Shown one piece after another: positions 27,234-52,396 of a DNA stretch of 64,000 nucleotides. The stretch's first letter is position 1, and every line of letters starts with the position of its first letter. The DNA is taken from assembly GCF_016809835.1 (NCBI RefSeq), contig NZ_JAFBIL020000003.1, positions 310,001-374,000 on the forward strand, written 5' to 3'. This stretch comes from Massilia soli. GTDB lineage: Bacteria; Pseudomonadota; Gammaproteobacteria; Burkholderiales; Burkholderiaceae_D. The notes beneath the pieces are model-generated. The model was not told where the DNA came from. It saw only the letters and a list, made by a program, of their open reading frames with translations, and searched no databases. A program made the position numbers and the translations under genes.

Positions 27234-27417
27234 ACGAGGCGATCGAACCGGGAATATTGTCATTTTATTTCCGTGCGCATATGGCAATTTGTCGGCCCTT
27301 CCCGTAATTTTCTGGTGTCGCCTGGCCGAGCAGTGCGACGCGTGACAACAACCAGGGGACGACCAATGCTGGCAATGAATGACCGTGCACCTTCGCGCAT
27401 TCGCGCAGGCCATTGCG

Positions 27418-28278
27418 ATGGGTGAGCGCAACGGCCACCTGGTGATTATCGGCGGCGCTGAAGACCGCATCTACGGCAAAAAGATCCTTGCCCGGTTTAC
27501 CGAACTGGCGGGCGGTTCGCAAGCGGACATCGTCGTCATCACCGCTGCCAGCGGGCTGTCCGACCAGATGTGGGAGGTCTACCGGCAGGCGTTCGGCGAG
27601 CTTGGCGTCATCAACGTCAGCCATGTGGAGATCAGTTCGCGCGCTGACGCCAACAGTGAACGCACGGTCGGCATGTTATCCCGCGCGGACGGCATCTTCA
27701 TGACCGGCGGCGACCAGAAGCGCCTGCTGGCGCTGATCGGAGGCACCGAGGCCGACCGCGCGCTGCACGCGGCGTTCAGGCAGCGCGGCGCCATCATTGG
27801 CGGCACGTCCGCCGGCGCGTCGGCGATGTCAGGCCAGATGCTGGCAAGCGGCGCAGCCGTTCCCCAGCCCGAGAAGGGCGCGGTCAGCATGGCGGCCGGC
27901 CTTGGCCTGCTCCAGCACATCCTGATCGACCAGCATTTCTCCGAGCGGCATCGGCTCGGCCGCCTGCTGACGGCGGTCGCGCAGAATCCCTGCCTGCACG
28001 GCGTCGGCATCGATGAGGATACCGCCCTGGTCATCGAACGCGGGGTTGGCATCGAGGTGGTGGGCGAGGGCGCGGTGACGGTTGTCGACGGCCGCCACAT
28101 GCACTCGAATCTCGCGCACATCGCCGACCGGGAAAACCCCGAGATGATCGATGTGCGCCTGCACGTGCTGCCGGCCGGCTCGCGCTATGCGCTGCCCACC
28201 GGCGGCCGCGCCGATGCGCTGCCGGCGTCGATGCTGGATTTCCTGCGCAAGGTAATCAATCCGCATCCGCACGCCTAG
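27418..28278 (+). CDS. cphB: cyanophycinase
   Basis: Serine peptidase of the S51 family that, in characterised members, cleaves cyanophycin to beta-Asp-Arg dipeptides. The 286-residue protein has the GHLVIIGGAEDR start, the MTGGDQKRL motif and the nucleophile elbow GGTSAGASAMS, all conserved in CphB. No signal peptide is seen, so it should be intracellular. The start at 27418 was preferred because it matches where the family begins and has an AGG eight bases upstream; an ATG at 27379 would add 13 residues. It faces the synthetase-like gene tail to tail with a 20-base gap. Given that gene's atypical ATP-grasp half, the true substrate may not be cyanophycin itself. Confidence 0.9.
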   Translation: MGERNGHLVIIGGAEDRIYGKKILARFTELAGGSQADIVVITAASGLSDQMWEVYRQAFGELGVINVSHVEISSRADANSERTVGMLSRADGIFMTGGDQKRLLALIGGTEADRALHAAFRQRGAIIGGTSAGASAMSGQMLASGAAVPQPEKGAVSMAAGLGLLQHILIDQHFSERHRLGRLLTAVAQNPCLHGVGIDEDTALVIERGVGIEVVGEGAVTVVDGRHMHSNLAHIADRENPEMIDVRLHVLPAGSRYALPTGGRADALPASMLDFLRKVINPHPHA

Positions 28279-28298
28279 CGGGCCGCAGCGCGATGTAC

Positions 28299-30599
28299 TC
28301 AGCTGGCCTGGCCGGCGATCGCGCGTGCCGCTTGCGGGTCGATCGGCTCGAGCGCTTCAACCAGCGCGCCGACCGAGGTGCCGCAGTAGACCAGCACGTC
28401 GCCCGGCGAACACAGTGCGAACGCGCGGCGCAGGGCCAGCACGCGGTCGTCGACGCCTTCCACCGCATCCGCGCTGGCGCGCGCGGACAGCGCGCCCTGG
28501 CGGATGATCGCGGCCGCCTGGCCGTACACCCGTCCGCGGCTGGCCGACTCGTACACCACCAGTTTATCGAAGCCCATGCCGCAAATGCGGCCGGTGCGGT
28601 GCAGCTCTTCGTCGCGCCGGTCGCCAGGCGACGTCACCACGCCGACCACGGCGCCCCGGGTCATGGCGCGCGCGGCTTCGGCAAGCGCTGCGTATGCCGC
28701 GGCATTGTGCGCGTAGTCGGCGATCACCGTCATGCCGCGCACGTGGAACAGGTTGGTGCGCAGCGGATTGGACTGGATGTCCGAGACAAAGCTGGCCAGT
28801 CCCGCGACGATCTCGGCGTCGTGGAACCCGGCGCCCAGCAGCGCCGCCGCGGCGGCAAGGCTGTTGGCGATGTTGTAGCGCGCGCGTCCGCCGAGGGTGC
28901 ACGGTATGTCGGCGACGCCGATCAGGATGCGCTTGCCGGCGCCGTCGGCCACCACCATGCTGGCGCCGTCAAGGACCAGCGCGCGGCCGCCGCCGCCCAG
29001 GTGATCGCGCAGCGCCGGGTTGGCGGGGTCGAGCGAGAAGTAGATCAGCTCGGCGCCGTGGCCGATGCGGCGCGCCATTGCGACGCAGTGCTCATCGTCG
29101 GCGTTCAGCACGGCCGCGCCGCTGGCGCAGGCGACAATCAGCTCCTTGACCCGGGCAAGCTGTTCGAGCGTATCAACCCCTTCCATGCCCAGATGGTCGT
29201 CGGAGACGTTGAGCACCACCCCGACTGTGCACTGGTCATAGGCCAGGCCGCGCTTGAGGATGCCGCCGCGTGCGGTTTCCAGCACGGCCATGTCGACCTC
29301 CGGCGCGCTGAGCACCGCGCGGTGCGACCAGTAGCCGGTGCAGTCGTCCTCGGCAACCATGCTGCCGCCGATGAAGATGCCGTGCGTCGAGGCGTGCCCG
29401 GTGCGGCGGCCGGCCAGCGCGGCGGCGTGCGCGATCATCAGGGTGGTGGTCGTTTTGCCGTTGGTGCCGGTAACGGCGATAACCGGAATGCGGGCGGCGT
29501 CGCCGGCGCCGGCCATGTCCAGGAATTCGTCGACCTCGATGTCGCGCGCATGCCCGCGCAGCGGCGGCGGCGCCTTGACGGCAATCACCGATGCCGCACC
29601 GGGGTCGGCTTCATCGTAGGCCAGCTCAATCGCGCCTTGCTCGAGGCCCAGTTTGGCGCTGGCGCGCGCGCACAGGGCGGCCAGGCCATCGCCGGCGGAG
29701 GATGCGCCGGCTTCGCCGACGTAGCGCGCGCCTGCCACCAGCCGTTCGATGGTGACGCGGCGTCCGAACTGGCGTGCGGCGGCGAACGCCTGCGCCAGTT
29801 CCCGGTCGCCGCTGCATTCGCTGATGCCGCCATCGCCGGCCCCGGCATCGCCTGGCATCACGAGCACGCGTTCGCCGAGGCGGCGTGCCACCCGCAGCGC
29901 GTCGTCGAGGTTGTCGACCGTGCCTCCCTGCGGTATCGGTATGCATGCCTCATCGAGCAGCGCACGCGTGAGCTGCCTGTCCTGTGCGATCCATGGCCCC
30001 ATCAACGGGGTATCGTTTGGCAGGCGCGGATGGTAGCGGCGCTGGCGGCTGCCGGTGCCGAGCTGGTACAGCGCATCGTGTTCGGTGATCCGGTTGGCGG
30101 GAATGCCGCGTTTGTGCGCCGCCGCCAGCACCGCTGCCGTCAGCGGGTCGATGCGGTAGCTTTCCGACTGCCGGACCAGCTGGTCGAACGGCGTGGCGTA
30201 GTCGAACGGCAGGCCATGGGCCAGCGCGTCGACCAGGTATACCGCCAGCGAAAACGCCGATTGGGCGATGTGCTCGATCTGGTAGGCGCACACCACACGG
30301 CGCAATGACGAAGGTCCCTCGGCCAGCGAGGTGTCGCAAAATTCGGCGGGCGCACCGGCCAGGCATTGCAGTTCGAGTGTCAGGTGCGCGATCACCGTGC
30401 CAGCGTCAAAGCCCGGCGGCAGCGGCGCGAGGCAGCGCTCGCGCAAGGTCGGCACCAGTGCGTGCAAGCGCTCGACTACCGACAGCAGGTCGGAGGGAGG
30501 CGCAAGCTCAAGGTCTTCAAGGTCGATCAGGCCGAGAATGCACGGGAAGCGGGCATACAGGTTCGCACCGCGCAGCAGGCGTTGTCGAAGAATCTTCAC
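28299..30599 (-). CDS. cyanophycin synthetase-like protein, degenerate ATP-grasp
   Basis: ATP-dependent amino-acid ligase related to CphA, 766 residues from the GTG at 30599 (AGGAAG upstream). CphA enzymes are usually about 870-900. The N-terminal domain is recognisable (QLGTGSRQRR, residues 179-188). The C-terminal Mur-ligase half is intact: P-loop GTNGKTTTT (378-386), ETARGGILKRGL (441-452) and NVSDDHLG (464-471). The ATP-grasp half between them is shortened: only about 85 residues separate VTIERLVAGARY from the Mur P-loop, and the expected NHGRG-type loop reads GDAGAGDGGISE (250-261). In CphA1 that half adds Asp and the Mur half adds Arg, so this enzyme may only form side-chain amide bonds. 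It follows the iron-redox gene by 23 bases. Confidence 0.82.
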   Translation of the reverse strand: MKILRQRLLRGANLYARFPCILGLIDLEDLELAPPSDLLSVVERLHALVPTLRERCLAPLPPGFDAGTVIAHLTLELQCLAGAPAEFCDTSLAEGPSSLRRVVCAYQIEHIAQSAFSLAVYLVDALAHGLPFDYATPFDQLVRQSESYRIDPLTAAVLAAAHKRGIPANRITEHDALYQLGTGSRQRRYHPRLPNDTPLMGPWIAQDRQLTRALLDEACIPIPQGGTVDNLDDALRVARRLGERVLVMPGDAGAGDGGISECSGDRELAQAFAAARQFGRRVTIERLVAGARYVGEAGASSAGDGLAALCARASAKLGLEQGAIELAYDEADPGAASVIAVKAPPPLRGHARDIEVDEFLDMAGAGDAARIPVIAVTGTNGKTTTTLMIAHAAALAGRRTGHASTHGIFIGGSMVAEDDCTGYWSHRAVLSAPEVDMAVLETARGGILKRGLAYDQCTVGVVLNVSDDHLGMEGVDTLEQLARVKELIVACASGAAVLNADDEHCVAMARRIGHGAELIYFSLDPANPALRDHLGGGGRALVLDGASMVVADGAGKRILIGVADIPCTLGGRARYNIANSLAAAAALLGAGFHDAEIVAGLASFVSDIQSNPLRTNLFHVRGMTVIADYAHNAAAYAALAEAARAMTRGAVVGVVTSPGDRRDEELHRTGRICGMGFDKLVVYESASRGRVYGQAAAIIRQGALSARASADAVEGVDDRVLALRRAFALCSPGDVLVYCGTSVGALVEALEPIDPQAARAIAGQAS

Positions 30600-30622
30600 A
30601 ATGGCACTTCCTGTATCTGGTC

Positions 30623-32095
30623 TTACGCGTCGAGCAGCTGGGCGAACATCCGCGTGGCCATCATCCCGACCGGCGTATGGTGCGTCGATGGCGCGATCGC
30701 CGCGCCAAGCAGTGCCATCGCCGCATCCTTGCCGCCGCATTCGGCAACTTGCTGCTCGAAGACGCGCAGGGCGTTCTGGCCGGCGGCGCCGCCGTCGTTG
30801 GCCGCCTGGCCCCAGTGGCGGATCACGCCGCGCATGGCGGCGGGACGCGCTTCCGCGCTGCCGGCCAGCTCGCGCAGGTTGCGCTGGCGCGCGCGATAGC
30901 TCGGCTCGCGCCGGGCGGCGGAAGCACCACCGGGCGCCTGTTCGATCCAGTCGCGCAGCACCTGCAGCTCGTACGGGCTAAATACGCCAAACATCTCGGC
31001 GCGCGGACCCGACACCAGGCCCCAGAAGCGGCTGGCAGCGGCGTCCTGGCCGCGCTGGATCCAGCCGGCACGCGTCATCGCATCGAGGAAGTCGCCGATC
31101 GCGGCCGGGTTCTCGAGCCAGGCGCTGACCGCCTTGCCTTCGATGCGGCAGTAGTCCGAGTGCATGTCCTTGCCGATGATGGCCTTGTCGGCCAGCAGGC
31201 GCTTGAGCTCCTTGTCGATGTCGAACGCGCCGATGACCGAGGTGGTGCAGGCGCCAAGTTCGTTGAGCCGGTAGCCGTTCAGCACGCGCTGGTAAAAAGC
31301 GGCCGGGTCGTCGGCGCGCGCCATCAGCGCTTGCAGCGCGGCGATCGCCTTGTGCGCGTGGCCGTTGGAGCCGTTATCGACTGTGACGTGCAAGGTGAAG
31401 TAGTACGGATCGATGCCCAGCTCATTCAACTCGTACGAGGTGATCAGCAGATGCAGCGGCAGCTGTTCGTATCCAAGGTTGTAACCGATCAGTTCGGGCA
31501 GGAACTGGTCCGCCTGCGCGGCCAGGGCCAGCTGGATCGCGCCCTGTTCGAAATGCTCGTCCGACAGGTCGTGCCACTGGTCGCAGCCGTGCGTGGCCAG
31601 CAGCTGCTGGTAGATCGCGACGTGGTTCTTGTCGGCAACGCCGTCGCCAAGCTCCTCCAGGTAGGTGCGGATCAGGCCGTGAAACGCGACATCCTGCCAG
31701 TGCGGCAGCACGCCGTACAGCCAGGCGCCATCGACCAGCTTGGTAGGCGCGACGGCGCGCAGGAAATATAGCGCCGCCGCCTTGCTGGCAAAGTACTGGC
31801 GTGGCGCGCCGGCTTTGCGGCGCGCGAGATAGTCCTGATAAGCCGCGCCGACATCTAGCACGTGGCGCTGCGACCAGTTGTCGAGCCGAGACGGGTCCAG
31901 CGGGAGGGCGACCGGCAGTGCCTCGGCATCGGCGAGGCAGCGACGCAGGAAGTGATGCGCCGCTTCCGGCTGCCGTTCCAGTCCCTGGCTCATCGCCAGG
32001 TAGATCGACTTGGCGCTCGCGGCCGCTGGTTGGGCGGCAGGCGGGCAGGGCGCTGCGAGCATTGGCTCACGCACGGGCATTGGCATGTTGGTCAT
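30623..32095 (-). CDS. heme-oxygenase-like iron-containing redox enzyme
   Basis: Predicted all-helical non-heme iron enzyme of 490 residues, matching the iron-containing redox enzyme / HDO superfamily whose known members oxidise amines, amino acids or fatty acids with O2. Candidate metal ligands are visible in two helices: E147/E148 with H158 (YLEELGDG...KNH) and E222 with H236, D240 and H246 or H248 (SYELNELGIDPYYF.LH...D...GHAH). The N-terminal 30 residues are Pro/Ala-rich and may be disordered. The start is uncertain (ATG 32095 or 32086; no clear ribosome site). It is the first gene of an apparent two-gene operon with the CphA-like ligase, suggesting oxidation of the amino acid the ligase uses or of its product. 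Confidence 0.75.
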   Translation of the reverse strand: MTNMPMPVREPMLAAPCPPAAQPAAASAKSIYLAMSQGLERQPEAAHHFLRRCLADAEALPVALPLDPSRLDNWSQRHVLDVGAAYQDYLARRKAGAPRQYFASKAAALYFLRAVAPTKLVDGAWLYGVLPHWQDVAFHGLIRTYLEELGDGVADKNHVAIYQQLLATHGCDQWHDLSDEHFEQGAIQLALAAQADQFLPELIGYNLGYEQLPLHLLITSYELNELGIDPYYFTLHVTVDNGSNGHAHKAIAALQALMARADDPAAFYQRVLNGYRLNELGACTTSVIGAFDIDKELKRLLADKAIIGKDMHSDYCRIEGKAVSAWLENPAAIGDFLDAMTRAGWIQRGQDAAASRFWGLVSGPRAEMFGVFSPYELQVLRDWIEQAPGGASAARREPSYRARQRNLRELAGSAEARPAAMRGVIRHWGQAANDGGAAGQNALRVFEQQVAECGGKDAAMALLGAAIAPSTHHTPVGMMATRMFAQLLDA

Positions 32096-32374: not shown

Positions 32375-34546
32375 ATGGATGACGCAAAGCCACCGATTTT
32401 CGATTTCCTGTCCCATGGCGGCGAAATGGGCGCGCTGATGCGCACCACCGACTGGACCAGCTCGCCACTTGGCCCGACCGAAGGATGGCCGCCTTTGCTC
32501 AAGAGCATCGTCAGGGTGATGCTGTCGTCCAGCCATCCGATGTTCCTGTGGTGGGGGCCGGAACTGATCCAGTTTTATAACGACGCCTATTCGCGCACCA
32601 TGGGTCCGGAACGCCACCCGTGCGCGCTCGGCGGACGCGGGCGCGAGTGCTGGTCTGAAATCTGGCCGATCATCGGGCCGCAGATCGCATTTGTCATGGA
32701 CGGCAAAGGCTCGACCTGGCACGAGGACCAGCTGATCGCCATTACCCGCCATGGCAGGCGCGAAGATGTCTGGTGGACCTACGGCTACAGCCCGGTCGAA
32801 GACGACGCCGGCGTGCATGGCGTGCTGGTGGTATGCAACGACGTCACGGCGCAGCATCTCGCCAGAGCCGAACTTGAACAAGTCAACCAGGCGCTCAGTG
32901 AACAGGTGCGCCAGCGCGAGCAGGCGCAGCAGCTAGAAGCGCAACAGGCGGCCCAATTGCTCCGGGCCGAACAGGCGCTGCACCACCAGCATGAGGCCGA
33001 GGCCGAACGCCTGTGCGCCCTGTTCCAGCAGGCGCCCGGCTTTGTGTGCATCCTGCGCGGTCCGGACATGGTGTATGAATTCGCCAACGCGGCGTACACC
33101 CGCTTCATCGGCGATCGCGATCTGATTGGCAAGACGATGCGCGAAGCGATTCCAGAAGCCGAAGGGCAGGGCTTCTTCGCATTGCTCGAACGCGTATACG
33201 AGACGGGCAAGCCGTTCGCCGCTAGCGACGTCACCCTGCTGCTGCGCAAAGCGCCGGGTGCGCCGGTCACCCAGGTCTATTGCGACTTTGTCTACCAGCC
33301 GATCTTTACCGCCGGTGAGGTGAGCGGCATTTTTGTCGAAGGTTTCGATGCCACCGAACGGGTAATGTCCAAGCAAGCGCTGGAACGCAGCGAGCTGCGC
33401 CTGCGCGAGGGCATGAAAGTGGCGCGGATGGCGGTATGGGACTGGATACTGTCGACCAATGAGGTCATCTTTTCCGACAATGCGCCTGAACTGTTTGGCG
33501 CCAACTGGACCAGCATCGAACAGGTGTGGGGCGCCATCGTCCCCGAGGACATGCAGCGCATCGACCAGGCGCGCCGCACCGCGCTGGCCCAGGACGGCAC
33601 CTACGGCGACATCATCCGGGTGGTGCGCCCCGACAACGGCGAGCTGGTCTGGCTTCAGGTGTACGCCACCGTGGTGGCCGACGCCGGCGGGGTGCCGCGC
33701 TGGGTGCGCGGGGTGTCGATCGACATCACCGCGCGCAAGCGCGCCGAGGAATCGCTGCGCGAAGCGGGCCGCCACAAGGACGAGTTCCTGGCGATGCTGT
33801 CGCACGAGCTGCGCAACCCGCTGGCGCCGATCCGGTCGGCGGCCCACCTGCTCGGGATGGACCCGGACAATGTCGCGCGGGTCAGGCAATCGAGCGTCAT
33901 CATCGAGCGCCAGGTCAATCACATGACTAGCCTGATCAATGACTTGCTGGATGTATCGCGCGTCAATACCGGCCTGGTGGTGCTGGAAAAGGACGCCGTC
34001 GACCTGCACCAGGTGGTACTGGAATCGCTGGAGCAGACGCAGCCGCTGATCGACGAACGCGGCCACACGATAGCGGTCAGGGGGCCCGGCGCGGGCGACG
34101 TGATCGTCTGGGGCGACCGCAAACGCCTGGTGCAGGTGCTCAGCAACCTGCTGCACAACGCCGCCAAGTACACGCCGGCGTGCGGGCGCCTGTCGCTCGA
34201 CGTGGTGGTGCACCCCTGCTCGGTCGACCTGCACGTGCGCGACAACGGCATCGGCATCGGCGCCGACCTGCTGCCGCATGTGTTCGAACTGTTTACCCAG
34301 CACAAGCGCACCCCTGACCGCAGCCAGGGCGGACTGGGGCTGGGATTGGCGCTGGTGCGCAGCCTGGTCGCGCTGCATGGCGGCCAAGTCACCGCGACCA
34401 GCGATGGCAGCGACGCCGGCAGCACCTTCTCGGTGACGTTGCCGCGCCATGTGCCTGCTGCCAACGCCACTGCCGGCGCCCGGTTGGACGCCCGGCCGGC
34501 AGCATCGATTCGCCGGCACGCCGAGGCGCACAGCATGCGTGGTTGA
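32375..34546 (+). CDS. cytoplasmic multi-PAS sensor histidine kinase
   Basis: Soluble histidine kinase of 723 residues with no membrane segments. The N-terminal PAS-like region (SSHPMFLWWGPELIQFYNDAY) is followed by a short coiled coil (about 165-210), two more PAS domains (FQQAPGFVCILRGPDMVYEFANAAY; then MAVWDWILSTNEVIFSDNAPELFG), HisKA (LAMLSHELRNPLAPI) and HATPase (DNGIGIGADLLPHVFELF; GGLGLGLALVRSLV). There is no receiver domain and no response regulator beside it, so the partner is encoded elsewhere. It is divergent from the redox enzyme-ligase operon and might regulate it, but only position suggests that. Confidence 0.9.
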   Translation: MDDAKPPIFDFLSHGGEMGALMRTTDWTSSPLGPTEGWPPLLKSIVRVMLSSSHPMFLWWGPELIQFYNDAYSRTMGPERHPCALGGRGRECWSEIWPIIGPQIAFVMDGKGSTWHEDQLIAITRHGRREDVWWTYGYSPVEDDAGVHGVLVVCNDVTAQHLARAELEQVNQALSEQVRQREQAQQLEAQQAAQLLRAEQALHHQHEAEAERLCALFQQAPGFVCILRGPDMVYEFANAAYTRFIGDRDLIGKTMREAIPEAEGQGFFALLERVYETGKPFAASDVTLLLRKAPGAPVTQVYCDFVYQPIFTAGEVSGIFVEGFDATERVMSKQALERSELRLREGMKVARMAVWDWILSTNEVIFSDNAPELFGANWTSIEQVWGAIVPEDMQRIDQARRTALAQDGTYGDIIRVVRPDNGELVWLQVYATVVADAGGVPRWVRGVSIDITARKRAEESLREAGRHKDEFLAMLSHELRNPLAPIRSAAHLLGMDPDNVARVRQSSVIIERQVNHMTSLINDLLDVSRVNTGLVVLEKDAVDLHQVVLESLEQTQPLIDERGHTIAVRGPGAGDVIVWGDRKRLVQVLSNLLHNAAKYTPACGRLSLDVVVHPCSVDLHVRDNGIGIGADLLPHVFELFTQHKRTPDRSQGGLGLGLALVRSLVALHGGQVTATSDGSDAGSTFSVTLPRHVPAANATAGARLDARPAASIRRHAEAHSMRG

Positions 34547-38600: not shown

Positions 38601-39586
38601 CCAACGCCTACAGCCGCGGCAAGCTCGATGAGGCGGCGCCGGCCGCGCGCGCCGACGCCATCCTGAGCAAGCCAGTGACTGGCACCAGCCTGTACGACAC
38701 GCTGCACGAGGTGCTGGTCGAGCGCGCGCGCGGCGCCGGCAGCGAGCGCCCGGTTGCGGCGGCCAAGGCGCTGACGCTGCTTGACGGCGCGCGCGTGCTG
38801 ATGGCCGAAGACAACGAGCTGAACCAGGCGGTCGCGCGCGGCATCCTCGAGCCGGCCGGCGCGCGCCTCGACATCGTCGGCGACGGCGCCCAGGCGGTGG
38901 CAAAACTGCAGGCCTCGCCGGCGGCCTGGGACCTGGTGCTGATGGATATCCAGATGCCGGTCATGGACGGCTACCAGGCCACGCGGCAGATCCGCGGCCA
39001 GCTCGGGCTGACCCTGCCGATCCTGGCCGTTACCGCCGGCGTGACCGAGCCCGAACGGGCCAGCTACCTGGCGGCCGGCATGGATGACCTGATCTGCAAG
39101 CCGGTCGACGCCGACCAGATGGTGGCCACGATTGCGCGCTACCTGAACCGGCGCCAGCGCTTTGGCCCGGCGGCGCCACGCGCCGTGCCGGCGCCGCCGC
39201 AGGAGCCGGCCACGCTGCCAGTGCTGGGCATCGAGCCGCTGGTGGCGCTGGCGCGCGGCGACCGCGAACGGCTGGGCGGGGTTGCGCACCTGCTGCAGCG
39301 GGTCGTCGACGATGCGGGGCGTGAATTCGCGCAGGCGCGCGCCAGCTGGCGCGACGGCGACGAGGAAACCGCGGCCAGGCTGTTGCACGCGCTGCGCGGC
39401 GGCGTCGGCAGCATAGGTGCGAAGCGCTTCGCGCAGGCGTCGCAGGCGCTGGAACAGGAGATCAGGGCGGCCAGGCCGCGCGAGCAGCTGGAACATAGTT
39501 TCAGCGCCACCGGGGTGGAGCTGGAGGCGGCGCTGGAGGCGGCGCGCGCCTGGCTGGCCTCCTACCGCGCCGAAGGGCAGGCCTAA
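35615..39586 (+). CDS. hybrid histidine kinase with two receivers and Hpt
   Basis: Large membrane phosphorelay protein of 1323 residues. The N-terminal block has about six membrane helices (residues 1-220), then an extracytoplasmic ligand-binding region of about 250 residues closed by another helix (near 500). PAS (ILENSNDAFVAIGTDGRI), HisKA (ANMSHELRTPMNAVLGMAH, His near 679) and HATPase (GGTGLGLAISRHLVDLM) follow. Two receiver domains come next (VLVDWQMPGMDG and LVLMDIQMPVMDG), then a C-terminal Hpt domain (LLHALRGGVGSIGA, His near 1258). All phosphotransfer sites look intact, so a full His-Asp-His relay could occur in one chain. No output regulator is adjacent. The stop overlaps that of the convergent stress protein by a few bases. 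Confidence 0.92.
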   Translation: MKKLVTSADQLAGVFVGLLGLVVAVRWVFNSDTIAMLVPGSAKMGIVSPVLFMAAGFCCYFALRRDAGPALGTAWRILAVLLMVVPTLVLAQHLFGISLGIDFVRVPTAPTADTPYPGRMAPNTCIAFLLAGTGLLLARAALPSPSRVAALGACALALIVIGASALVGYILKLELMYRIAAANVMQPPTAVGIVMLGIGLWSMRSAHAAARHGPASSESRITWHALGIIAVVALSAGAAGFVAMRDSYEESLSSNMMVAARTSADAIGNTLEVRRRMMEDITQASGLAALLSQPAGPERQAQVQALAQRMLGADVAGLEVYGADGALLASAGRLAPFDGSVRHPLTVQGLPASLVWDRGYVLRTEHQLRDGAVAVGRVAGERRLMLLDRLLASIGAPGASEILLCHRAGGEAVCASTRRRQQAFHVPISRIDRRFDLPIGRAVAGESGVTNARDLRGVQVLAAYTPVSGFGLGLVVKNDIDTLYAPLRQRTNLLVLALVLLVALSASALLFQVRPLLAQLVREQRRTRVILENSNDAFVAIGTDGRITDWNSQAELLFGWSAAEAMGHDMASLIIPPAQRPAHSAGFARFIRTGTGNIINSRIEVIALRRDGSEIPVELSVAGFHNGIGYVANAFMRDITERRRLAAEGAARAADLEHERDRAEAGSRAKGEFVANMSHELRTPMNAVLGMAHLLSLTDLKDEQKRYLEMIRESGRSLLGIMNDILDFSKVEAGRVELEQSRFLLCDVLGAVATIMSVNAGEKDIELAIGIDPDVPHVLWGDAMRLQQVLVNLAGNAIKFTEHGEVSLLVELLARDDDQAILQVRVRDTGIGIAEAHRDQLFSPFTQADSSTTRRFGGTGLGLAISRHLVDLMKGSISFDSEVGQGSEFRVALPLRVAAARDDTRALTGAMASLRLLVVDDHPTSRDYIARTIRGWGWEAHCAASGAQAIALVRQASPAYDAVLVDWQMPGMDGVRTMESIRNIAGRGRLPVLLMANAYSRGKLDEAAPAARADAILSKPVTGTSLYDTLHEVLVERARGAGSERPVAAAKALTLLDGARVLMAEDNELNQAVARGILEPAGARLDIVGDGAQAVAKLQASPAAWDLVLMDIQMPVMDGYQATRQIRGQLGLTLPILAVTAGVTEPERASYLAAGMDDLICKPVDADQMVATIARYLNRRQRFGPAAPRAVPAPPQEPATLPVLGIEPLVALARGDRERLGGVAHLLQRVVDDAGREFAQARASWRDGDEETAARLLHALRGGVGSIGAKRFAQASQALEQEIRAARPREQLEHSFSATGVELEAALEAARAWLASYRAEGQA

Positions 39587-40041
39587 ATGCGCTCGGCCAG
39601 CGGCGGGCGGAACACCATCACCGGCATCGGCGCATAGGCCAGCACCTTCTGGGTCTCGCTGCCGGCGATCAGCCGGCTGATCCCGCGCCGTCCGTGCGAA
39701 CCCATGAAGATCGCGTCGCACTGGTGCCGGGTCGCCGCCGCGATGATTTCCTGATGCGGGTGGAACGACTGCGCCACCTCGGTCATGCACGGCACACCGG
39801 CAGCGCGCGCGGCAGCGGCCACCGCGTCGACCCGCGCCTGCGCCTGCGCCGTCATCGCGCGGCTGTCCAGCCCGGGATCGACGACCATCGCGCCTTCGAC
39901 CAGCGGCGTCAGCGGGTAGGGCTCGGCGACCGACAGCGCGACGATACTGGCGCCGCAGCAGCGCGCCACCTCGACGGCCGCGTCGACCGCCTGCTGCGAA
40001 ATCGCCGAACCGTCGGTCGGCACCAGGATTGTGTTGAACAT
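39583..40041 (-). CDS. universal stress protein, single domain
   Basis: UspA-family protein of 152 residues with the ATP-binding signature G-2x-G-9x-G-S/T (MGSHGRRGISRLIAGSE) and the N-terminal ILVPTDGS motif, so it probably binds ATP. It is the second gene of a two-gene operon with a tandem Usp protein, 8 bases downstream of it. Its stop overlaps the hybrid kinase stop. The setting, next to an FNR-box promoter and a low-oxygen island, suggests a role in surviving oxygen limitation. Confidence 0.93.
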   Translation of the reverse strand: MFNTILVPTDGSAISQQAVDAAVEVARCCGASIVALSVAEPYPLTPLVEGAMVVDPGLDSRAMTAQAQARVDAVAAAARAAGVPCMTEVAQSFHPHQEIIAAATRHQCDAIFMGSHGRRGISRLIAGSETQKVLAYAPMPVMVFRPPLAERI

Positions 40042-40049
40042 GGCGGCTC

Positions 40050-40886
40050 CTAATGCGACATCAGCACCGGCACCGTCATGGTGCGCAGCAGGGTCTCGGT
40101 GACGCCGCCAAGGAGCATCTCGCGCAGGCGCGCGTGGCCGTATCCGCCCATGACGATCAGGTCGCAGCTGCGGTCGGCCGCCATCGACAGCAGGGCGTTG
40201 CCGACGTCGATGCCGGTCTGCTGCAGCGAGACTTCGATATTGACGCCATGGCGCGCCAGGTACAGCGCGATGTCCGCGCCGGGCTGCTCGCCGTGCTCGT
40301 CGAACGGGCTGGGGTTGAACACGGCGATCGTCACGTGGCGCGCGCGCTTGAGCAGGGGGATCGCGTTGGTCACCGCGCGCGTGGCTTCCATGCTGGCGTC
40401 CCAGGCTACCAGCACATTCTCGCCGACGGTCTCGAAACTGCCGGCGTAGGGCACCACCAGGACCGGCCGCGCACTGTTGAGCACCACGTATTCCGGCAGC
40501 CGCAGCGACAGGTGAGCCGACGGATCGGTGCGGTCGTCCTGGCTGACCACCACCAGGTCGGCGTAGCGCGACTGCATGGCCAGCGCGCCTGCCGAGTCGT
40601 CATCGACCAGGCGGCGCTCGCAGGTCAGCGCCCCGGCCGCCTTGGCGACTTCCTCGAAGTGTGCGAGCGAATCGCTGGCACGCTGGTACAGTGCATCCAT
40701 ATGCATCGCCACGACGCTGCGAGCCAGGTCGATGTTGCCGTCCTGATACAGATACCGCGATATGCCCGTCATGGCCGCGCCCACCAGGTGGGCGCCGTCA
40801 GCCTGCGCGAGCCGCGCCGCGACCCGTATGCGCTCCGCGGCGTGGCGCGACTGGTCGGCGTGGACGAGTATCGTTTTGTACGACAT
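40050..40886 (-). CDS. universal stress protein, tandem domain
   Basis: Protein of 278 residues with two Usp domains. The first (MSYKTILVHADQS) lacks a clear ATP-binding loop. The second has the loop MGGYGHARLREMLLGGVTE, which fits G-2x-G-9x-G-G/T. Proteins of this layout are often oxygen- or starvation-induced in betaproteobacteria. It is the first gene of the usp pair and diverges from pat across a 186-base gap that contains a perfect FNR box at 40992-41005, 106 bases from its start. Confidence 0.92.
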   Translation of the reverse strand: MSYKTILVHADQSRHAAERIRVAARLAQADGAHLVGAAMTGISRYLYQDGNIDLARSVVAMHMDALYQRASDSLAHFEEVAKAAGALTCERRLVDDDSAGALAMQSRYADLVVVSQDDRTDPSAHLSLRLPEYVVLNSARPVLVVPYAGSFETVGENVLVAWDASMEATRAVTNAIPLLKRARHVTIAVFNPSPFDEHGEQPGADIALYLARHGVNIEVSLQQTGIDVGNALLSMAADRSCDLIVMGGYGHARLREMLLGGVTETLLRTMTVPVLMSH

Positions 40887-40991
40887 GGCATGTTCCTTTT
40901 GGCGAGAGTGGATCCGGAATCTTCAGATTAGGCCGCACGGTCCTCCGCGTCCAGCAGCAAAAGTCAAACGCAAGCAGGCATTCAACTATTT

Positions 40992-41005
40992 TTGATGTGC
41001 ATCAA
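40992..41005. promoter_or_regulatory. FNR box upstream of pat and usp operon
   Basis: TTGATGTGCATCAA matches the FNR/Anr consensus TTGAT-N4-ATCAA at every defined base. A possible -10 (TCTAAG, 41026-41031) follows at the distance expected for a class II activated promoter reading toward pat. The same box could serve the divergent usp operon. Confidence 0.88.
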
Positions 41006-41072
41006 TCAACTTGCTGCGCTGCCCTTCTAAGCTGCCCAGCTTCCTCACCCACCACACGACCAAGGCTTACCG

Positions 41073-43760
41073 ATGAGCGTACGAAACCTCGAACACCTGT
41101 TTGCCCCGCGGTCGGTGGCCGTCATCGGCGCATCGCTGACGCCGCGCAGCGTCGGCGCGACCGTGCTGCGCAATGTGCTGGCCGCCGGATTCAAGGGGCC
41201 GGTGTATCCGGTCAATCCCAAATACGACACCTTGTGCGGCCTGCGCACCTATCCCGACGCCGCCGCGCTGCCGGAAGCGCCGGACCTGGCCATCATCTGC
41301 ACGCCGGCCGCCACGGTGCCTCGCATCGTGCGCCAGCTGGGCGAGGCCGGCACGCGCGCGGCGATCATCCTCAGCGCCGGCCTGGACGACGACAAGCAGC
41401 GCGACGCGCACGGCCGCACGCTCAAGCAGGCCGCGCTCGACGCCGCGCGCCCGTACGTGCTGCGCCTGCTCGGCCCCAACTGCGTCGGCCTGCTGGTGCC
41501 TGGCATCGGCCTGAACGCCAGCTTCGCCCACGCCGATGCGCTGCCGGGCCGGATCGCTTTCGTCTCGCAGTCGGGCGGCATGGTGACGGCGGTGCTGGAC
41601 TGGGCGCGCTCGCGCGGGATCGGGTTTTCCAAGTTCATTTCACTGGGCGAAAGCGCCGATGTCGATTTTGGCGACCTGCTCGACTACCTTGCCAGCGACG
41701 CCGATACCAGCGCCATCCTGCTGTACATGGAGGATGTGCGGCACGCGCGCAAGTTCATGTCGGCCGCGCGCGCGGCCGCGCGCAGCAAGCCGGTGCTGGT
41801 GCTCAAGGCCGGCCGCATGCCCGAAGGCGCGCGCGCGGCGGCCTCGCACACCGGCGCGCTGGCCGGCGCCGACGACGTCTACGACGCGGCGATCCGGCGC
41901 GCCGGCATGCTGCGCGTGCTGACCACCGAAGACATGTTTTCCGCCGTCGAGACGCTGGCGCATGCGCGCACCCGCGGCGGCGACCGGCTGGCCATCATGA
42001 CCAATGGCGGCGGTCCCGGCGTGATGGCAGCCGACGCGCTTGGCGCGGCCGGCGGAACGCTGCCGGCCCTGAGCGCGGCGACGCTGGCCAGCCTGGACGC
42101 GGTGCTGCCGCCGACATGGTCGCGCGCCAACCCGGTCGACATCATCGGCGACGCGCCGGTGCAGCGCTACCTCGATACGCTGCGCGTGCTGTTGGCCGAC
42201 CCGGACAACGATGCCGTGCTGTTCATCCATGCGCCCACCGCCATCGTGCCCAGCGCCGAGATCGCGCGCGCGGTCGCGCCGATGGCCAAGGGCGCGTCGC
42301 GCAATGTGCTCGGCTGCTGGCTGGGGGGCGACGCCGTCGCCGAGGCGCGCCGCATCTTTTCCGCCGAAGGCATCCCGTCCTACGACACGCCCGAAGAAGC
42401 GGTCAATGCGTTCATGCAGATTGCCCAGTACCGGCGCAACCAGGACCTGCTGATGCAGGTGCCGCCGGCGCTGCGCGTGAACGACGAGGGCGGCCGCGCG
42501 ATCGCCGCCGGCGTGGTGCGCGCGGTGCTTGCCGAAGGGCGCACGATCCTGACCGAGCCGGAAGCCAAGCGGGTGCTTGACGCCTACGGCATCCCGGTGG
42601 TCCAGACCCGCACCGCGGCCGACGTCGAGGCGGCAGTCAAAGAGGCAGAGGCGATCGGCTACCCGGTCGCGGTCAAGATCCTGTCGCCCGATATCACCCA
42701 TAAATCCGATGTCGGCGGCGTCGCGCTCGATCTCGACAGCGGCGAGGCGGTGCGCAGCGCCGCCACCCGGATGCTGCACCGGCTTGCCGAGCTCAAGCCC
42801 GGCGCGCGGCTTGACGGCCTGACCGTGCAAAGCATGGCGCGCCGCCCGCAAGCCCATGAGCTGATCGTCGGCGTCGCCACCGATCCGGTGTTCGGGCCGG
42901 TGATCCTGTTCGGGCAGGGCGGGGTGGCGGTGGAAGTGACGGCCGACCACGCGGTCGGATTGCCGCCGCTGAACGCGGTGCTGGCCAGGGACATGGTGTC
43001 GCGCACGCGGGTGGCCAGGCTGCTGGCAGGCTACCGCAACCGCCCGCCGGCCGACATCGATGCCATCGTGCGGGTGCTGATGCAGGTGTCGCAGCTGGCG
43101 GCGGACATTCCGGAGCTGGCCGAGCTGGATATCAACCCGCTGCTGGCCGACAGCGACGGCGTCATCGCGCTGGACGCCCGCATCCGGGTCGCGCTGGCCG
43201 ACCAGAGCGCCAGTTCGCTGGACCGGCTGGCGATCCGCCCTTATCCGGCCGAACTGGAAGAGCAGGTGGCGTGGAACGGCGAAACGCTGACCTTGCGACC
43301 GATCCGGCCCGAGGACGGCCCGGCGCACCTCGAGTTCTTCGGCGCGCTGACGCCCGACGACGTGCGCTACCGGATGTTCGTGCGGGTACGCGAGCTGCAG
43401 CCGTCGCAGCTGGCGCGCTTCACCCAGATCGACTACGACCGCGAGATGGCCTTCATCGCCACGCGCCCGCTGCCTGGCGGCGGCGAGCAGACCATCGGCG
43501 TGGCGCGCGTGGTCGCCGACCCGGACAACATCCAGGCCGAGTTCGCGGTCACCGTGCGCTCCGACCTGAAGGGCCATGGGCTGGGTCGGGTGCTGATGGA
43601 AAAGCTGATCGCCTATTGCCGCGCGCGCGGCACCCGCGAAATCGTCGGCGAGGCGCTGCCGCAAAACACCCGCGTGATCAAGCTGGTGCGCAAGCTTGGC
43701 TTTGCCGTCACGCCCAATCCGGCCGAAGACTCGGTCCATCTGAGCTTGCCGCTGGACTAG
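41073..43760 (+). CDS. Pat/PatZ-type acyl-CoA synthetase-GNAT fusion
   Basis: Protein of 895 residues combining an ADP-forming acyl-CoA synthetase body with a C-terminal GNAT acetyltransferase. In order: CoA-binding Rossmann domain ([15 protein letters not shown]), succinyl-CoA-ligase-like domain with SHTGALAG (His259), ATP-grasp domain ([28 protein letters not shown]), and GNAT (about 730-895; [22 protein letters not shown]). Characterised Pat/YfiQ members acetylate lysines on acetyl-CoA synthetase and other proteins. His259 is at the place of the phosphohistidine of active ADP-forming enzymes, so ligase activity is possible. A perfect FNR box precedes it, suggesting induction under low oxygen. 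Confidence 0.88.
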
Positions 43761-43765
43761 TAAAC

Positions 43766-43779
43766 TTGATCTAGATCAA
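43766..43779. promoter_or_regulatory. FNR box upstream of aer
   Basis: TTGATCTAGATCAA is a perfect FNR/Anr site, six bases after the pat stop and 67 bases before the aer start. TACACT (43803-43808) is a plausible -10 at the class II distance. The central CTAG makes the whole 14-mer a perfect palindrome. Confidence 0.88.
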
Positions 43780-43845
43780 GGATTTGCTGCGGCCGTGACC
43801 ACTACACTGGGCTCTTTTAATGCCATACGGCAACAGGAGAGCAAC

Positions 43846-45420
43846 GTGCGTACCAATCTGCCCATCACTGGCATCGAACATTCTTTGCGCGACGGCCAGT
43901 CGCTGGTTTCCAAGACCGACACCAAGGGCAAGATCACCTACTGCAACCCGGCGTTCATCGAGATCAGCGGCTACTCGCGCGATGAGCTGCTGGGCCAGCC
44001 GCATAACATCGTGCGCCACCCGGACATGCCGCCCGAAGCGTTCGCCGATCTGTGGGAGACGCTCAAGCAAGGCCGCCCGTGGACCGGGATGGTCAAGAAC
44101 CGCTGCAAGAATGGCGATTTCTACTGGGTGCTGGCGAACGTCACCCCGATCATGGAAGACGGGCGCACGGTCGGCTACATGTCGGTACGCACCAAGCCGG
44201 GCCGCGATCAGGTGGCGGCGGCCGGCGCCATCTACCAGCGCTTCAGGCAGGGCCAGGCCGAGGGACTGGCCGTGCATCGCGGCGCGGTGGTGCGCGCGGG
44301 TCTGGCGGCGCGCCTGCGCGCCGTGCGCGACGCCGCCCTCGGCACCCGCATCGGCATCGCCATGGGCGCCATGGCCGCGCTGCTGGCGGCCGTTGCCGTC
44401 GGCGGGCAGGGCGGCTGGATCACGTGGCTGGCGGCAACGGGCGTCGTGTTCGCTGCCGCCCTGTGGCGGATGCTGGCCGTGTCGGTTGCCGCGCCGCTGG
44501 GCGCCGCGATCGGCGCGGCCAACCAGCTGGCCGGCGGCGACCTGTCCGCCACCGTCGAGGTGAGCGCCGGCGGCGAGATCGGCCAGCTGCAGGCGGCACT
44601 GCGCCAGGTCGGGCTGAACCTGCGCGCCATCATCGGCGACGTGCGCAGCAATGTCGATTCGATCGAAACGGCGACCCGTGAAATCGCCACCGGCAACCAG
44701 GACCTGGCCGAGCGCACCGCCGCCCAGGCCGCCAGCCTGGAAGAAACCGCGACCAGCATGCTGCAGTTTGCCGTCACGGTGGGCGAAAACACCGACAGCG
44801 CGGTGCGCGCCGACGAGTGCGTGGTGGCCGCTGCGGCGGTCGCCGGGCAGGGCGGCAAGGCGGTCGACCGGGTCGGCGATACGATGGGCCAGATCAGCGA
44901 TTCGGCCAAAAAAATCGTCGACATCATCGGCCTGATCGACGGCATCGCGTTCCAGACCAATATCCTCGCGCTGAATGCGGCCGTGGAAGCGGCGCGCGCG
45001 GGCGAGCAGGGGCGCGGCTTTGCCGTGGTCGCGGGCGAAGTGCGCAGCCTGGCGCAGCGCTCGGCCGGCGCCGCCAAGGAGATCAAGCACCTGATCGACG
45101 ATTCGGTCCACAAGGTCAGCCACGGCAATGCGCTGGTCGGCGAGGCCGGCGGCACCATGGGCAGCGTGGTCGCATCGGTGCAGCGCGCCACCGCCATCAT
45201 GGCGGGCATCAAAAGCGCCAGCCTGGAGCAGCGCGCGACCATCGGCCAGGTCAACCAGGCAGTCGCCGAGCTCGATGCGATCACCCAGCAGAACGCGGCG
45301 CTGGTCGAACAGGCGGCCGCGGCCTCGTCGAATGTTGCCGAGCAGGCGGCAGGACTGGCGCAAGCGCTGTCGGTCTTTCAACTCGGGCGCAGCAGCGCGC
45401 CGCGCCTCGGGCGTTTTTGA
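43846..45420 (+). CDS. aer: Aer-like aerotaxis/redox chemoreceptor
   Basis: Methyl-accepting chemotaxis protein of 524 residues with an N-terminal PAS domain of the FAD-binding Aer type ([37 protein letters not shown]). Two close membrane helices (about 165-215), a HAMP-like segment and the signalling hairpin follow, with the universal tip [37 protein letters not shown]. It senses cellular redox state rather than an external ligand. The GTG at 43846 was chosen because AGGAG lies six bases upstream and the family begins MRTNLP; a GTG at 43795 would add 17 residues. It sits between FNR-box promoters. Confidence 0.92.
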
Positions 45421-45438
45421 TGCACCGCAAGGATTTTC

Positions 45439-45452
45439 TCGATGCCGATCAA
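45439..45452. promoter_or_regulatory. possible imperfect FNR box upstream of hemN
   Basis: TCGATGCCGATCAA differs from the FNR consensus at one base and ends 36 bases before the hemN ATG. No good -10 stands at the class II distance, and the gene may simply be read from the aer promoter. Confidence 0.4.
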
Positions 45453-45488
45453 TAGACTGAGCTCTACAGTCAGGATTGGAGCAACGTT

Positions 45489-46907
45489 ATGAATATATCC
45501 GCAGTACCAGCAAACCGGGTCCCGAGCGTGGAGTTCGACGGCGCCCTGATCCGCAAGCTGAACCAGTCCGGCCCGCGCTACACCTCGTACCCGACCGCCG
45601 ACCGCTTCAGCGACAGCTACGGCTACCGCGACTACCTGAAGGCGGTGGCCGGGCTGCGGACGCGCGGCGTTGCCAAGCCGCTTTCGCTGTACGTGCACAT
45701 CCCGTTCTGCGACACCGTCTGCTATTACTGCGCCTGCAACAAGGTGGTGACCAAAAACCGTGACAAGGCGACGACCTATCTCAGCTACCTGAAGCGCGAA
45801 ATCGAGATGCAGGGCCGGCTGTTCGCCGGCATGAACCAGGTCGAGCAGCTGCACCTGGGCGGCGGCACGCCGACCTACCTTTCGGACGAGCAGATGGGCG
45901 ACCTGATGACGCATATCCGGCACTGGTTCAAGCTGGCGCCCGACGCGGAAGGCGAATATTCGATCGAGATCGATCCGCGCACGGTGTCGCCCGAGCGCCT
46001 GCACAGCCTGCGCCGCCAGGGCTTCAACCGGGTCAGCCTCGGCGTGCAGGACTTCGATGGCGACGTGCAGCGCGCCGTCAACCGGGTCCAGCCCGAGGAG
46101 GAAACCCGCGCCATCATCGAGGCCGCGCGCAGCGCGGGATTCCGCTCGGTGAGCATCGACCTGATTTACGGGCTGCCCAGGCAGAACGTCATCAGCATGG
46201 CGCAGACCCTGGCCAAGGTGATCGCCGCCAATCCCGACCGCATCGCGATCTACAACTACGCGCACCTGCCGCACCTGTTCAAACCGCAGCGCCGCATCCT
46301 GGACGCGGACATGCCGAGCGCCGACACCCGCCTCGACATGCTGGCGCTGTGCATCCGGCGCCTGGCCGACGCCGGCTATACCTACATCGGCATGGACCAC
46401 TTCGCGCGGCCCGACGACGATCTCGCGGTGGCGCAGCGGCAGGGCCGCCTGCACCGCAACTTCCAGGGTTATTCGACCCATGCGGACACCGACCTGGTGG
46501 CCTGCGGCGTCTCGGCCATCGGCTCGGTCGGCGCGACCTACAGCCAGAATGCGAAAACCCTCGACGCCTACTACGATGCGCTCGACCGCAACGAGCTGCC
46601 GATCGTGCGCGGCGCGCGCCTGTCGATGGACGACGCGCTCAGGCGCGCGATCATCCAGACCCTGATGTGCAACTTCGAGCTGTCGGTGCCGGCCATCGAA
46701 CAGGCCTATCCGATCGATTTCGCCGGCTACTTCAAGCCTGAGCTGGAGCGGCTGGCAGCGCTGGCAGGCGACGGCTTGCTGTCGGTCGACCGCGAATGGC
46801 TGACGGTCACGCCGAAGGGCCGCCTGCTGATCCGCAACATCTGCATGGTGTTCGACCGCTACCTGAGTTCGGCGCCGCAGGTGGCGCGCTACTCGAAGAC
46901 CATCTGA
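45489..46907 (+). CDS. hemN: oxygen-independent coproporphyrinogen III oxidase
   Basis: Radical-SAM enzyme (472 residues) that converts coproporphyrinogen III to protoporphyrinogen IX without O2 in haem synthesis. The iron-sulfur cluster motif CxxxCxxC is present (C74, C78, C81 in IPFCDTVCYYCAC), with GGGTPTYL after it and the HemN-specific N-terminus (GPRYTSYPTADRF). Length and N-terminal features point to true HemN rather than HemW. The start has GGAGCAACGTT upstream. It supplies haem under the low-oxygen conditions in which the neighbouring cbb3 oxidase is made. Confidence 0.96.
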   Translation: MNISAVPANRVPSVEFDGALIRKLNQSGPRYTSYPTADRFSDSYGYRDYLKAVAGLRTRGVAKPLSLYVHIPFCDTVCYYCACNKVVTKNRDKATTYLSYLKREIEMQGRLFAGMNQVEQLHLGGGTPTYLSDEQMGDLMTHIRHWFKLAPDAEGEYSIEIDPRTVSPERLHSLRRQGFNRVSLGVQDFDGDVQRAVNRVQPEEETRAIIEAARSAGFRSVSIDLIYGLPRQNVISMAQTLAKVIAANPDRIAIYNYAHLPHLFKPQRRILDADMPSADTRLDMLALCIRRLADAGYTYIGMDHFARPDDDLAVAQRQGRLHRNFQGYSTHADTDLVACGVSAIGSVGATYSQNAKTLDAYYDALDRNELPIVRGARLSMDDALRRAIIQTLMCNFELSVPAIEQAYPIDFAGYFKPELERLAALAGDGLLSVDREWLTVTPKGRLLIRNICMVFDRYLSSAPQVARYSKTI

Positions 46908-46917
46908 CGGGCGCCGC

Positions 46918-47670
46918 ATGCAAGGCATCAACCTGTTACCGGTCTTCCTGGTCGGCTTGTTCGGCAGCGTCCACTGCGCAGGCATGTGCGGCGGGATCGT
47001 CAGCGCGTTTTCGGTGGCCGCGCCGGCCCAGCGCGCCTTCCCGGTCGCCGTCGCCACCCGCACCAGCGCGCAGGTGCCGGCGCGGGTGCTGTCGTATAAC
47101 GCCGGCCGCATCGCTTCCTACATGCTGGCGGGGGCCTTGGCGGGCGGCCTGGCAAACGGCGCGCGCACCCTCGGCGGCCTTGGCGCGCTGCAAACCGCAG
47201 GCTACCTGCTGGCCAACCTGATGCTGGTTGCGCTCGGCCTGCACCTGATGGATGCATGGCGCGGGCTGGCGCAAGTCGAGCGGCTCGGCGGCGGATTGTG
47301 GCGCCGCCTGAAACCGTTGGGCGCGCGGCTGCTGCCGATTGATGGCCCGGCCAAACTGTTCGGCCTCGGCGCCCTGTGGGGCTGGCTGCCGTGCGGGATG
47401 GTCTACAGCGTGCTGGTGACGGCGATGCTGAGCGGCTCGGCCGCTTCCGGCGCCACCGTGATGCTGGCATTTGGCCTGGGCACCTTGCCGATGCTGGTGA
47501 CGATGGGCGTGGCCGGCGCGGCCCTGCGCGCGGCAATGCAGCGGCGCGCGGTGCGCATCGGCGCCGGCCTGCTGGTGCTCGGTTTCGGCTTGCTTGGCCT
47601 GGCGCGCGCGGCCATCGGCGACCAGGCCCATTGGCTCGACCTGGTCTGCATTCCCGGGATGGCGCCATGA
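46918..47670 (+). CDS. SafE/DsbD-like membrane protein of the cco locus
   Basis: Polytopic inner-membrane protein of 250 residues (about six helices) of the sulfite exporter TauE/SafE or DsbD_2 group. Its N-terminal GSVHCAGMCGGIVSAF motif, with two cysteines and a histidine, resembles metal-transport members often encoded beside ccoI/ccoS. It starts 10 bases after hemN and its stop overlaps the ccoI start (ATGA), so it is translationally coupled to the copper ATPase. A role in copper supply or cbb3 maturation is inferred from position. Confidence 0.82.
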   Translation: MQGINLLPVFLVGLFGSVHCAGMCGGIVSAFSVAAPAQRAFPVAVATRTSAQVPARVLSYNAGRIASYMLAGALAGGLANGARTLGGLGALQTAGYLLANLMLVALGLHLMDAWRGLAQVERLGGGLWRRLKPLGARLLPIDGPAKLFGLGALWGWLPCGMVYSVLVTAMLSGSAASGATVMLAFGLGTLPMLVTMGVAGAALRAAMQRRAVRIGAGLLVLGFGLLGLARAAIGDQAHWLDLVCIPGMAP

Positions 47671-50078: not shown

Positions 50079-50240
50079 ATGGAAGCGCTGTTCCTCCTCA
50101 TCCCCCTCAGCCTGATCGTCGTCGCGGTGGCCGGCTGGATCTTCTTCGGCGCCTCCGACAGTGGCCAGTTCGACGACCTCGATGGCCCGCCGCTGCGCCT
50201 GCTGCAGGACGACGACTCGATTCCGCCAAAGATGCACTGA
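50079..50240 (+). CDS. ccoS: CcoS cbb3 oxidase maturation protein
   Basis: Small membrane protein of 53 residues beginning [19 protein letters not shown], one membrane helix with its N-terminus outside, then [18 protein letters not shown] and an acidic tail. The W-x-x-x-x-A-x-x-x-GQFDDL pattern is the CcoS/FixS signature. The ATG abuts the ccoI stop. Characterised homologues help insert haem and copper into CcoN. Confidence 0.93.
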
Positions 50241-50251
50241 TCTGGCCGGTT

Positions 50252-50265
50252 TTGATTCACATCAA
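50252..50265. promoter_or_regulatory. FNR box upstream of ccoNOQP
   Basis: TTGATTCACATCAA is a perfect FNR/Anr site 69 bases before the ccoN start. TAACCT (50288-50293) could be the -10 at class II spacing. It gives the structural oxidase genes their own oxygen-controlled promoter, separate from hemN-ccoI-ccoS. Confidence 0.92.
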
Positions 50266-50334
50266 GGATTTTTGAGGTTCAGAAACCTAACCTTGAGTCT
50301 GTCATCAATTTCATTGCAATCCAGGAGAAGCATT

Positions 50335-51762: not shown

Positions 51763-51780
51763 CCCTGCAGGAGCTCTTTC

Positions 51781-52395: not shown

Positions 52396-52396
52396 C

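Follow-up and report, generated by a model that had tools for sequence, protein, structure and literature searches.

The gene cluster described here lies in a 64,000-nucleotide stretch of the Massilia soli genome (referred to as the window; C33:310001-374000 in a genome of 4.99 Mb) and codes for a heme-oxygenase-like protein (HOL), a ligase related to the cyanophycin synthetase CphA, and a cyanophycinase. The described system closest to HOL itself is DtpC of Acinetobacter baumannii, a heme-oxygenase-like dimetal oxidase (HDO) of about 480 amino acids, which is co-transcribed with katE and curbs oxidative damage in dried cells. According to the main text of that study, in which the words "methyltransferase" and "cyanophycin" do not occur, alanine changes of E143, H153 or H232 each abolish protection, an iron chelator rescues dried dtpC mutants, and the closest relatives beyond Acinetobacter are those of Stutzerimonas and Pseudomonas (PMC13232832). 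An HDO adjoining amino-acid ligases is known from the mangotoxin cluster mboABCDEF, described in a survey that counts 25 or more kinds of cluster combining an HDO with ATP-grasp enzymes; however, MboA is accompanied there by ATP-grasp dipeptide ligases and a reductase, and the terms "cyanophycin", "CphA" and "Mur ligase" are absent from the main text (PMC13185094). The HOL loci contain instead Mur-type CphA relatives, cyanophycinase, the beta-aspartyl peptidase IaaA and an N-methyltransferase (MT). Finally, the cyanophycin clusters of the type cphA1-cyanophycinase-iaaA share three of their enzymes with the loci of the HOL relatives, but do not include HOL and MT; the text does not contain "oxygenase" and uses "methyltransferase" just for isoaspartyl repair and in one reference (PMC10206079). 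A preliminary description of the locus had stated that no system of this composition was known, and in agreement with this, the open-licence literature yielded no combination of cyanophycin with heme oxygenase-like proteins or of cyanophycin synthetase with an iron-containing redox enzyme.

The three genes are real and arranged as that description had reported, with a gap of 23 bases between HOL and the ligase and a cyanophycinase gene tail to tail with the latter (Table 1). HOL carries a ligand set of three His and three carboxylates (E148, H158, E210, H236, D240 and H246), which does not vary in 46 of 46 aligned relatives and is conserved to 99-100% among 82 loci of the window's family (the window plus L079-L172, all with HOL scores >300 and chosen from 126 genomes with a full HOL). 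Its AlphaFold model (pLDDT 88.1) contains the core helices expected for an HDO, followed by a helical C-terminal third. In a Foldseek comparison with the PDB, ranks 1-15 are all occupied by HDOs with probabilities of 0.87-1.00, the best being RohS, HrmI and SznF, which are reported as N-oxygenases of guanidine or amine substrates, with SznF acting on N-omega-methylarginine (PMC13108848). A phmmer search of the PDB with the single HOL sequence gave no match up to E 10, a HOL profile reached 9pfw with E 0.38, and no NCBIfam family was matched. SznE and SznF of streptozotocin synthesis reportedly combine an HDO with a methyltransferase and thus resemble the HOL-MT pair. Identity of HOL with SznF is ruled out, since a Pfam scan revealed no C-terminal cupin domain; the helical C-terminal third and the AerE/PrmC-like nature of MT are further differences from the published SznF system (PMC13108848, PMC10849742).

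The link to DtpC is provided by a HOL relative from a locus with a GC content of 42% (L293), where a catalase gene (PF00199, 567 bits) starts 40 nt after HOL. Counted from its ATG, residues 143, 153 and 232 of this protein are E, H and H, matching the DtpC positions, and its alignment with the window HOL, in which the counterparts are E148, H158 and H236, covers the full length. Because of these residues in a katE-linked relative and of the relatives in Stutzerimonas and Pseudomonas, genera in which the HOL family is found as well, we take the window HOL to belong to the DtpC family, with predicted metal binding and O2 activation. However, katE stands beside HOL only in L293 among 20 Pseudomonadales loci, and the gene next to HOL in the window is that of the ligase and not a catalase, so the gene arrangement differs from that of DtpC.

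The ligase shares with CphA1 (TIGR02068; 7wac, 7lg5) the N domain and the Mur-type M domain with all of its catalytic residues checked, but scores only 581.4 bits against TIGR02068, under the equivalog cut-off of 850 for CphA1. A Pfam scan, which used an open reading frame (ORF) with a start further upstream, identified the N domain (PF18921, E 7.3e-10), Mur_ligase_M (E 2.9e-19) and Mur_ligase_C (E 3.4e-13), and of the ATP-grasp (G) domain merely a weak remnant (CPSase_L_D2, E 0.00042). At the G-domain positions taken from TeCphA1 (PMC9427784), K220, K261 and H267 are replaced by R, M and A, E450 is replaced by A, and R309, R323, N394, S396 and R458 fall into gaps; the canonical CphA of the same genome has Q at the position of H267. 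The M-domain residues K499, T500, E558, D585 and H586 are all retained, and residues of this domain contacting Arg were not found in the available text of the same source. As judged from these residues, the window ligase has lost its Asp-adding G domain, while its M domain is intact. A tree of the M domains, built from 49 of 116 ligase ORFs and two typed references, separates 47 HOL-linked ligases from four CphA1 rows (two from Burkholderiales and two cyanobacterial) with support of 100/99, and the window ligase should accordingly be regarded as a member of a diverged, separate clade and not as a CphA1. The HOL-linked clade differs from CphA1 by P540 being changed to Y (95/99) and V624 to C (99/99), and by loss of the acidic D801 of the EDDDxRGR specificity loop (gaps in 84/99), which we take by its place to be the counterpart of the DNPR specificity loop of MurE. 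For this comparison, 15 fragments or rows from outside the family were removed, while L254 and L255, two rows of canonical CphA read in the wrong frame, are excluded from the comparison of catalytic residues above; the 99 rows, like the 109 mentioned below, are not all independent, as some genes appear twice from two collections (e.g., L102/L222, L136/L205, and L250/L253).

Loss of the G domain is recurrent. Among 109 ligase rows, including fragments and duplicates, 70 have both residue sets, 33 the M set without the G set (some of them being fragments), five the G set without the M set (one of which, L134_17222, is cut by the end of the stretch) and one neither. The G state switches at least eight times on the ligase tree, on which some forks are open, and all nine M residues checked are kept in 19 of the 19 G-less ligases labelled there. 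In two clusters, L108 (4179-6323 and 6381-8789) and L171 (12811-15003 and 10396-12801), one of two neighbouring ligases has only the G set and the other only the M set, which looks like a division of the synthetase into two separate proteins. The preliminary description had raised the question of a separate full-length cphA elsewhere in this genome, and an ordinary cphA'-cphA pair is indeed present on contig C1 (L016; 723 and 856 aa, PRK14016 scores of 985 and 1249 bits). This rules out the window ligase as the only CphA of the organism; it is the third CphA homologue. No HOL match was found in the 17-kb stretch around the pair, and the sole other PF14518 match of the genome is located on C39. 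In the cphA' of the pair (L016:5192-7363), the G part looks complete and the M part dead, with the P-loop and D585/H586 lost, which is the opposite of the window ligase. A Noviherbaspirillum locus (L266:6509-9145) contains a G-less ligase together with IaaA, apart from HOL and near a small protein which by eye resembles KGG-type stress proteins.

The neighbourhood of HOL is conserved beyond chance in the window's family. Within 9 kb of HOL, the 82 loci contain a CphA-like ligase in 58 cases, cyanophycinase in 53, MT in 35 and IaaA in 34, and in 36 of 80 loci the gene that comes next on the strand, no more than 250 nt after HOL, is that of the ligase. The closest named relative at the locus is that of Massilia agrisoli, with a HOL identity of 84%. 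The typical layout in Massilia and Telluria is HOL-ligA, convergent with IaaA-cyanophycinase-ligB (L083, L153-L166), and those of Pseudoduganella and its kin and of relatives from the window's genus are HOL-MT-IaaA-cyanophycinase-ligA (L084, L146) and IaaA-HOL-MT-cyanophycinase-ligase (L085, L106), respectively. Beyond the family, a HOL-MT unit with a ligase 2 kb further on is found in Pollutimonas (L250).

MT, a class I methyltransferase (Pfam MTS) with an NPPY motif, emerges as the core partner of HOL. It is present in 104 of the 126 full-HOL genomes at a threshold of E 1e-25, compared to two of the 266 others among 392 genomes of the window's family, seven weak HOL matches having been dropped beforehand, none of them with MT (Fisher p 7e-70, ignoring kinship between genomes). 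The HOL family is patchily distributed, as concluded from its occurrence in only four of 369 genomes in a class-wide search that counted the window's own genome; among 390 genomes of the Pseudomonadales, the order to which the HOL-carrying genome G565 belongs, it was found in 20, and an assignment of G565 itself to Acinetobacter is ruled out by its GC content of 64%. In 18 of these 20 Pseudomonadales loci, MT is the gene directly after HOL. In a second collection, MT comes after HOL in all 18 Pseudomonas/Stutzerimonas loci, and none (0/18) has a ligase within the stretch covered, and CphA above the family cut-off was found in none of eight Pseudomonas/Stutzerimonas genomes searched, whereas the other four genomes of the same search (Noviherbaspirillum, Herminiimonas, and Pollutimonas) contain it. 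Since HOL-MT units occur in genomes without CphA, HOL is independent of the ligase, and the idea that it exists for the ligase is ruled out. The neighbourhood of redox enzyme and ligase, whose rarity in related genomes would have spoken against the preliminary description, holds within the Oxalobacteraceae and not in the Pseudomonas/Stutzerimonas loci; of its interpretation, the gene identities, the linkage and the missing published match have stood, whereas arginine as the substrate and maturation of a product by the peptidase stay conjectural. The MT, the kinship to DtpC, the missing G domain and the ordinary cphA'-cphA pair had all lain beyond its view. The nearest folds to MT are AerE at ranks 1-5, followed by gentamicin N-methyltransferase. 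AerE is reported to methylate the side-chain amide of Asn (PMC11285071), and MT retains the NPPY motif and the equivalent of AerE D141. Based on these folds and residues, MT most likely methylates a nitrogen, perhaps that of an amide.

Some variants of HOL loci were observed in addition. Two genomes of the window's genus encode a HOL domain fused to a LodA-like cysteine tryptophylquinone (CTQ) quinoprotein oxidase in proteins of about 1239 aa (L094:6030-9746 and L095:7764-11483; PF17990 and PF18417 were identified in a Pfam scan of L094 only). In another genome of this genus (G075), HOL appears as two overlapping matches of an apparently broken gene (L109:7373-8774). In loci of the Stutzerimonas type, a divergent gene upstream of HOL codes for a hydrophilic protein of just 68-76 aa (L233:9588-9791, L235:9574-9786, and L271:9049-9276).

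Taking the gene identities, the conserved catalytic residues, the linkage, the co-occurrence of HOL and MT, the ligase clade, the G-domain loss and the DtpC kinship of a relative together, we favour a stress-metabolite pathway of HDO and N-methylation which has been joined to an isopeptide ligase derived from cyanophycin synthesis, and assign to this reading a probability of roughly 40%. HOL and MT would make a small N-oxygenated and/or N-methylated metabolite of the amino-acid type, which would protect cells that are dried or under oxidative stress. This module would have been joined, in Massilia, Telluria, Duganella and their kin, to a duplicated and diverged CphA family, in which the G activity would extend an Asp backbone and the M activity would attach an amino acid to the beta-carboxylate of Asp. 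These ligases would couple Asp to the HOL-MT metabolite or to a precursor of it; the conjugate would be undone, and the metabolite released, by cyanophycinase and, where present, IaaA. The cluster in the window would have retained the M activity only, and its ligase would form a single beta-isopeptide bond, with free Asp, a short primer or the product chain of the canonical CphA pair as acceptor; alone, it should make no polymer, because no other activity of the synthetase is left in the cluster. The pairing of HOL and ligase probably yields a modified amino-acid conjugate; the metabolite itself, its sharing by HOL and ligase, the order of the steps and the role in stress of Massilia are what we infer beyond this. 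Binding of iron by the metabolite is a possibility, given the benefit of a chelator to dried dtpC mutants (PMC13232832) and the fact that some HDO products, such as graminine, are metal ligands (PMC10849742). For DtpC, an orphan stress factor with a phenotype, the HOL-MT unit and the ligase/hydrolase module of Massilia represent a candidate pathway with assayable enzymes, and the question of the DtpC product becomes testable in soil bacteria. Likewise, a CphA-derived clade with lost or split synthetase activities may offer a natural test bed for new beta-isopeptides.

Several observations weigh against this reading. The cluster in the window lacks MT, which is encoded on another contig unlinked to HOL (G000:C39:144529-145443), MT is missing at the threshold used from 22 of the 126 full-HOL genomes, and 15 of the 82 family loci have none of ligase, cyanophycinase, IaaA and MT near HOL. 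The Foldseek E-values of HOL are weak (best 1.6e-3), Y137 of AerE is F in the MT family, and the predicted kinship to DtpC runs via the relative in L293 and published positions and not via the A. baumannii sequence. The presence of both G and M sets in 70 of the 109 ligase rows is consistent with ordinary polymer synthesis, and the cyanophycinases of the clusters are canonical: that of the window retains the catalytic S144 as well as D184, Q185, H186, R190, R192 and R195, which are conserved in 95% or more of the 57 cyanophycinases from the clusters, and its best solved relative is 7uqv (E 6.3e-59). Because of these canonical residues, plain recycling of beta-Asp peptides appears as likely for this enzyme as maturation of a product. 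A search for a PF01112 beta-aspartyl peptidase found none anywhere in the window genome, so a further enzyme would be required to degrade beta-Asp peptides completely. Two divergent proteins of the cyanophycinase family, of 398 and 420 aa, are encoded on C34 of the same genome (L111:4597-5793 and L112:4815-6077; TIGR02069 scores of 149 and 143 bits).

The canonical cyanophycinase and the complete ligases are the very features that would be expected if ligases, cyanophycinase and IaaA formed a second cyanophycin cycle, with HOL as a bystander which shares their stationary-phase or stress regulation and leaves the polymer untouched. The frequency of IaaA at the loci, the usual clustering of cyanophycinase with CphA1 and the known one with IaaA (PMC10206079), and the eight Pseudomonas/Stutzerimonas genomes with HOL and no ligase agree with such a cycle. 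However, the genome already contains a canonical cphA'-cphA pair with no HOL beside it, the HOL-linked ligases form a clade of their own with an altered specificity loop, and the recurrent loss of the Asp-adding domain with retention of M would be odd for polymer storage; this explanation is given a lower probability than the favoured one. We consider it clearly less probable that HOL oxidizes free arginine, as first proposed, or N-methylarginine made by MT, for attachment to an Asp side chain by the M domain. The nearest HDO folds are indeed those of N-oxygenases, including an enzyme of N-omega-methylarginine (PMC13108848), and CphA M domains are reported to use Arg (PMC9262961), but HOL-MT occurs without the ligase in Pseudomonas and Stutzerimonas, the HOL-linked clade has lost D801 from its specificity loop, and the nearest fold to MT is an enzyme of Asn amides and not of Arg. 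An equally small chance is given to HOL acting downstream of the ligase on a beta-aspartyl peptide or amide, in parallel to MboA, whose substrate in mangotoxin synthesis is the tripeptide Leu-Ala-Arg formed by ligases (PMC13185094); the closely following ligase genes and the resemblance of MT to an amide N-methyltransferase would suit this order, but the HOL-MT pairs in genomes without CphA would need a different source of substrate. Least probable of all, and very doubtful, is a cyanophycin-like oligomer or polymer carrying N-oxygenated, N-methylated and metal-binding side chains from HOL and MT in place of arginine, as an enzymatically releasable intracellular store of iron ligands protecting drying cells, even if it would connect the chemistry of cyanophycin with survival of desiccation and account for the chelator rescue of the dtpC mutants (PMC13232832).

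Table 1. Coordinates of the cluster genes and the HOL-ligase gap in the window.
Feature	Position	Strand	Basis
HOL, predicted DtpC-type HDO, 490 aa	30623..32095	-	PF14518, E 1.3e-28
HOL-ligase gap, 23 bases, with AGGAAG (ribosome-binding-site-like) 5' of the ligase GTG	30600..30622	-	Sequence
CphA-like ligase, predicted M-only, 766 aa; GTG 30599, stop 28299	28299..30599	-	Pfam, TIGR02068, residues, tree
Cyanophycinase (peptidase S51), convergent with ligase	27379..28278	+	TIGR02069, 270.7 bits (cut-off 126.6)

The cyanophycinase gene may start either at the ATG at 27379 or at an in-frame ATG at 27418, and 20 bases separate its stop codon from that of the ligase. Divergently from HOL, the window contains a gene for a PAS/HisKA sensor kinase (32375-34546), a homologue of which is found at the equivalent place in L079. 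At a distance of 7-23 kb from HOL (39583-54886), inspection of the sequence by eye points to universal-stress-like proteins, a PAS protein, a HemN-like protein and an apparent cbb3 oxidase region.

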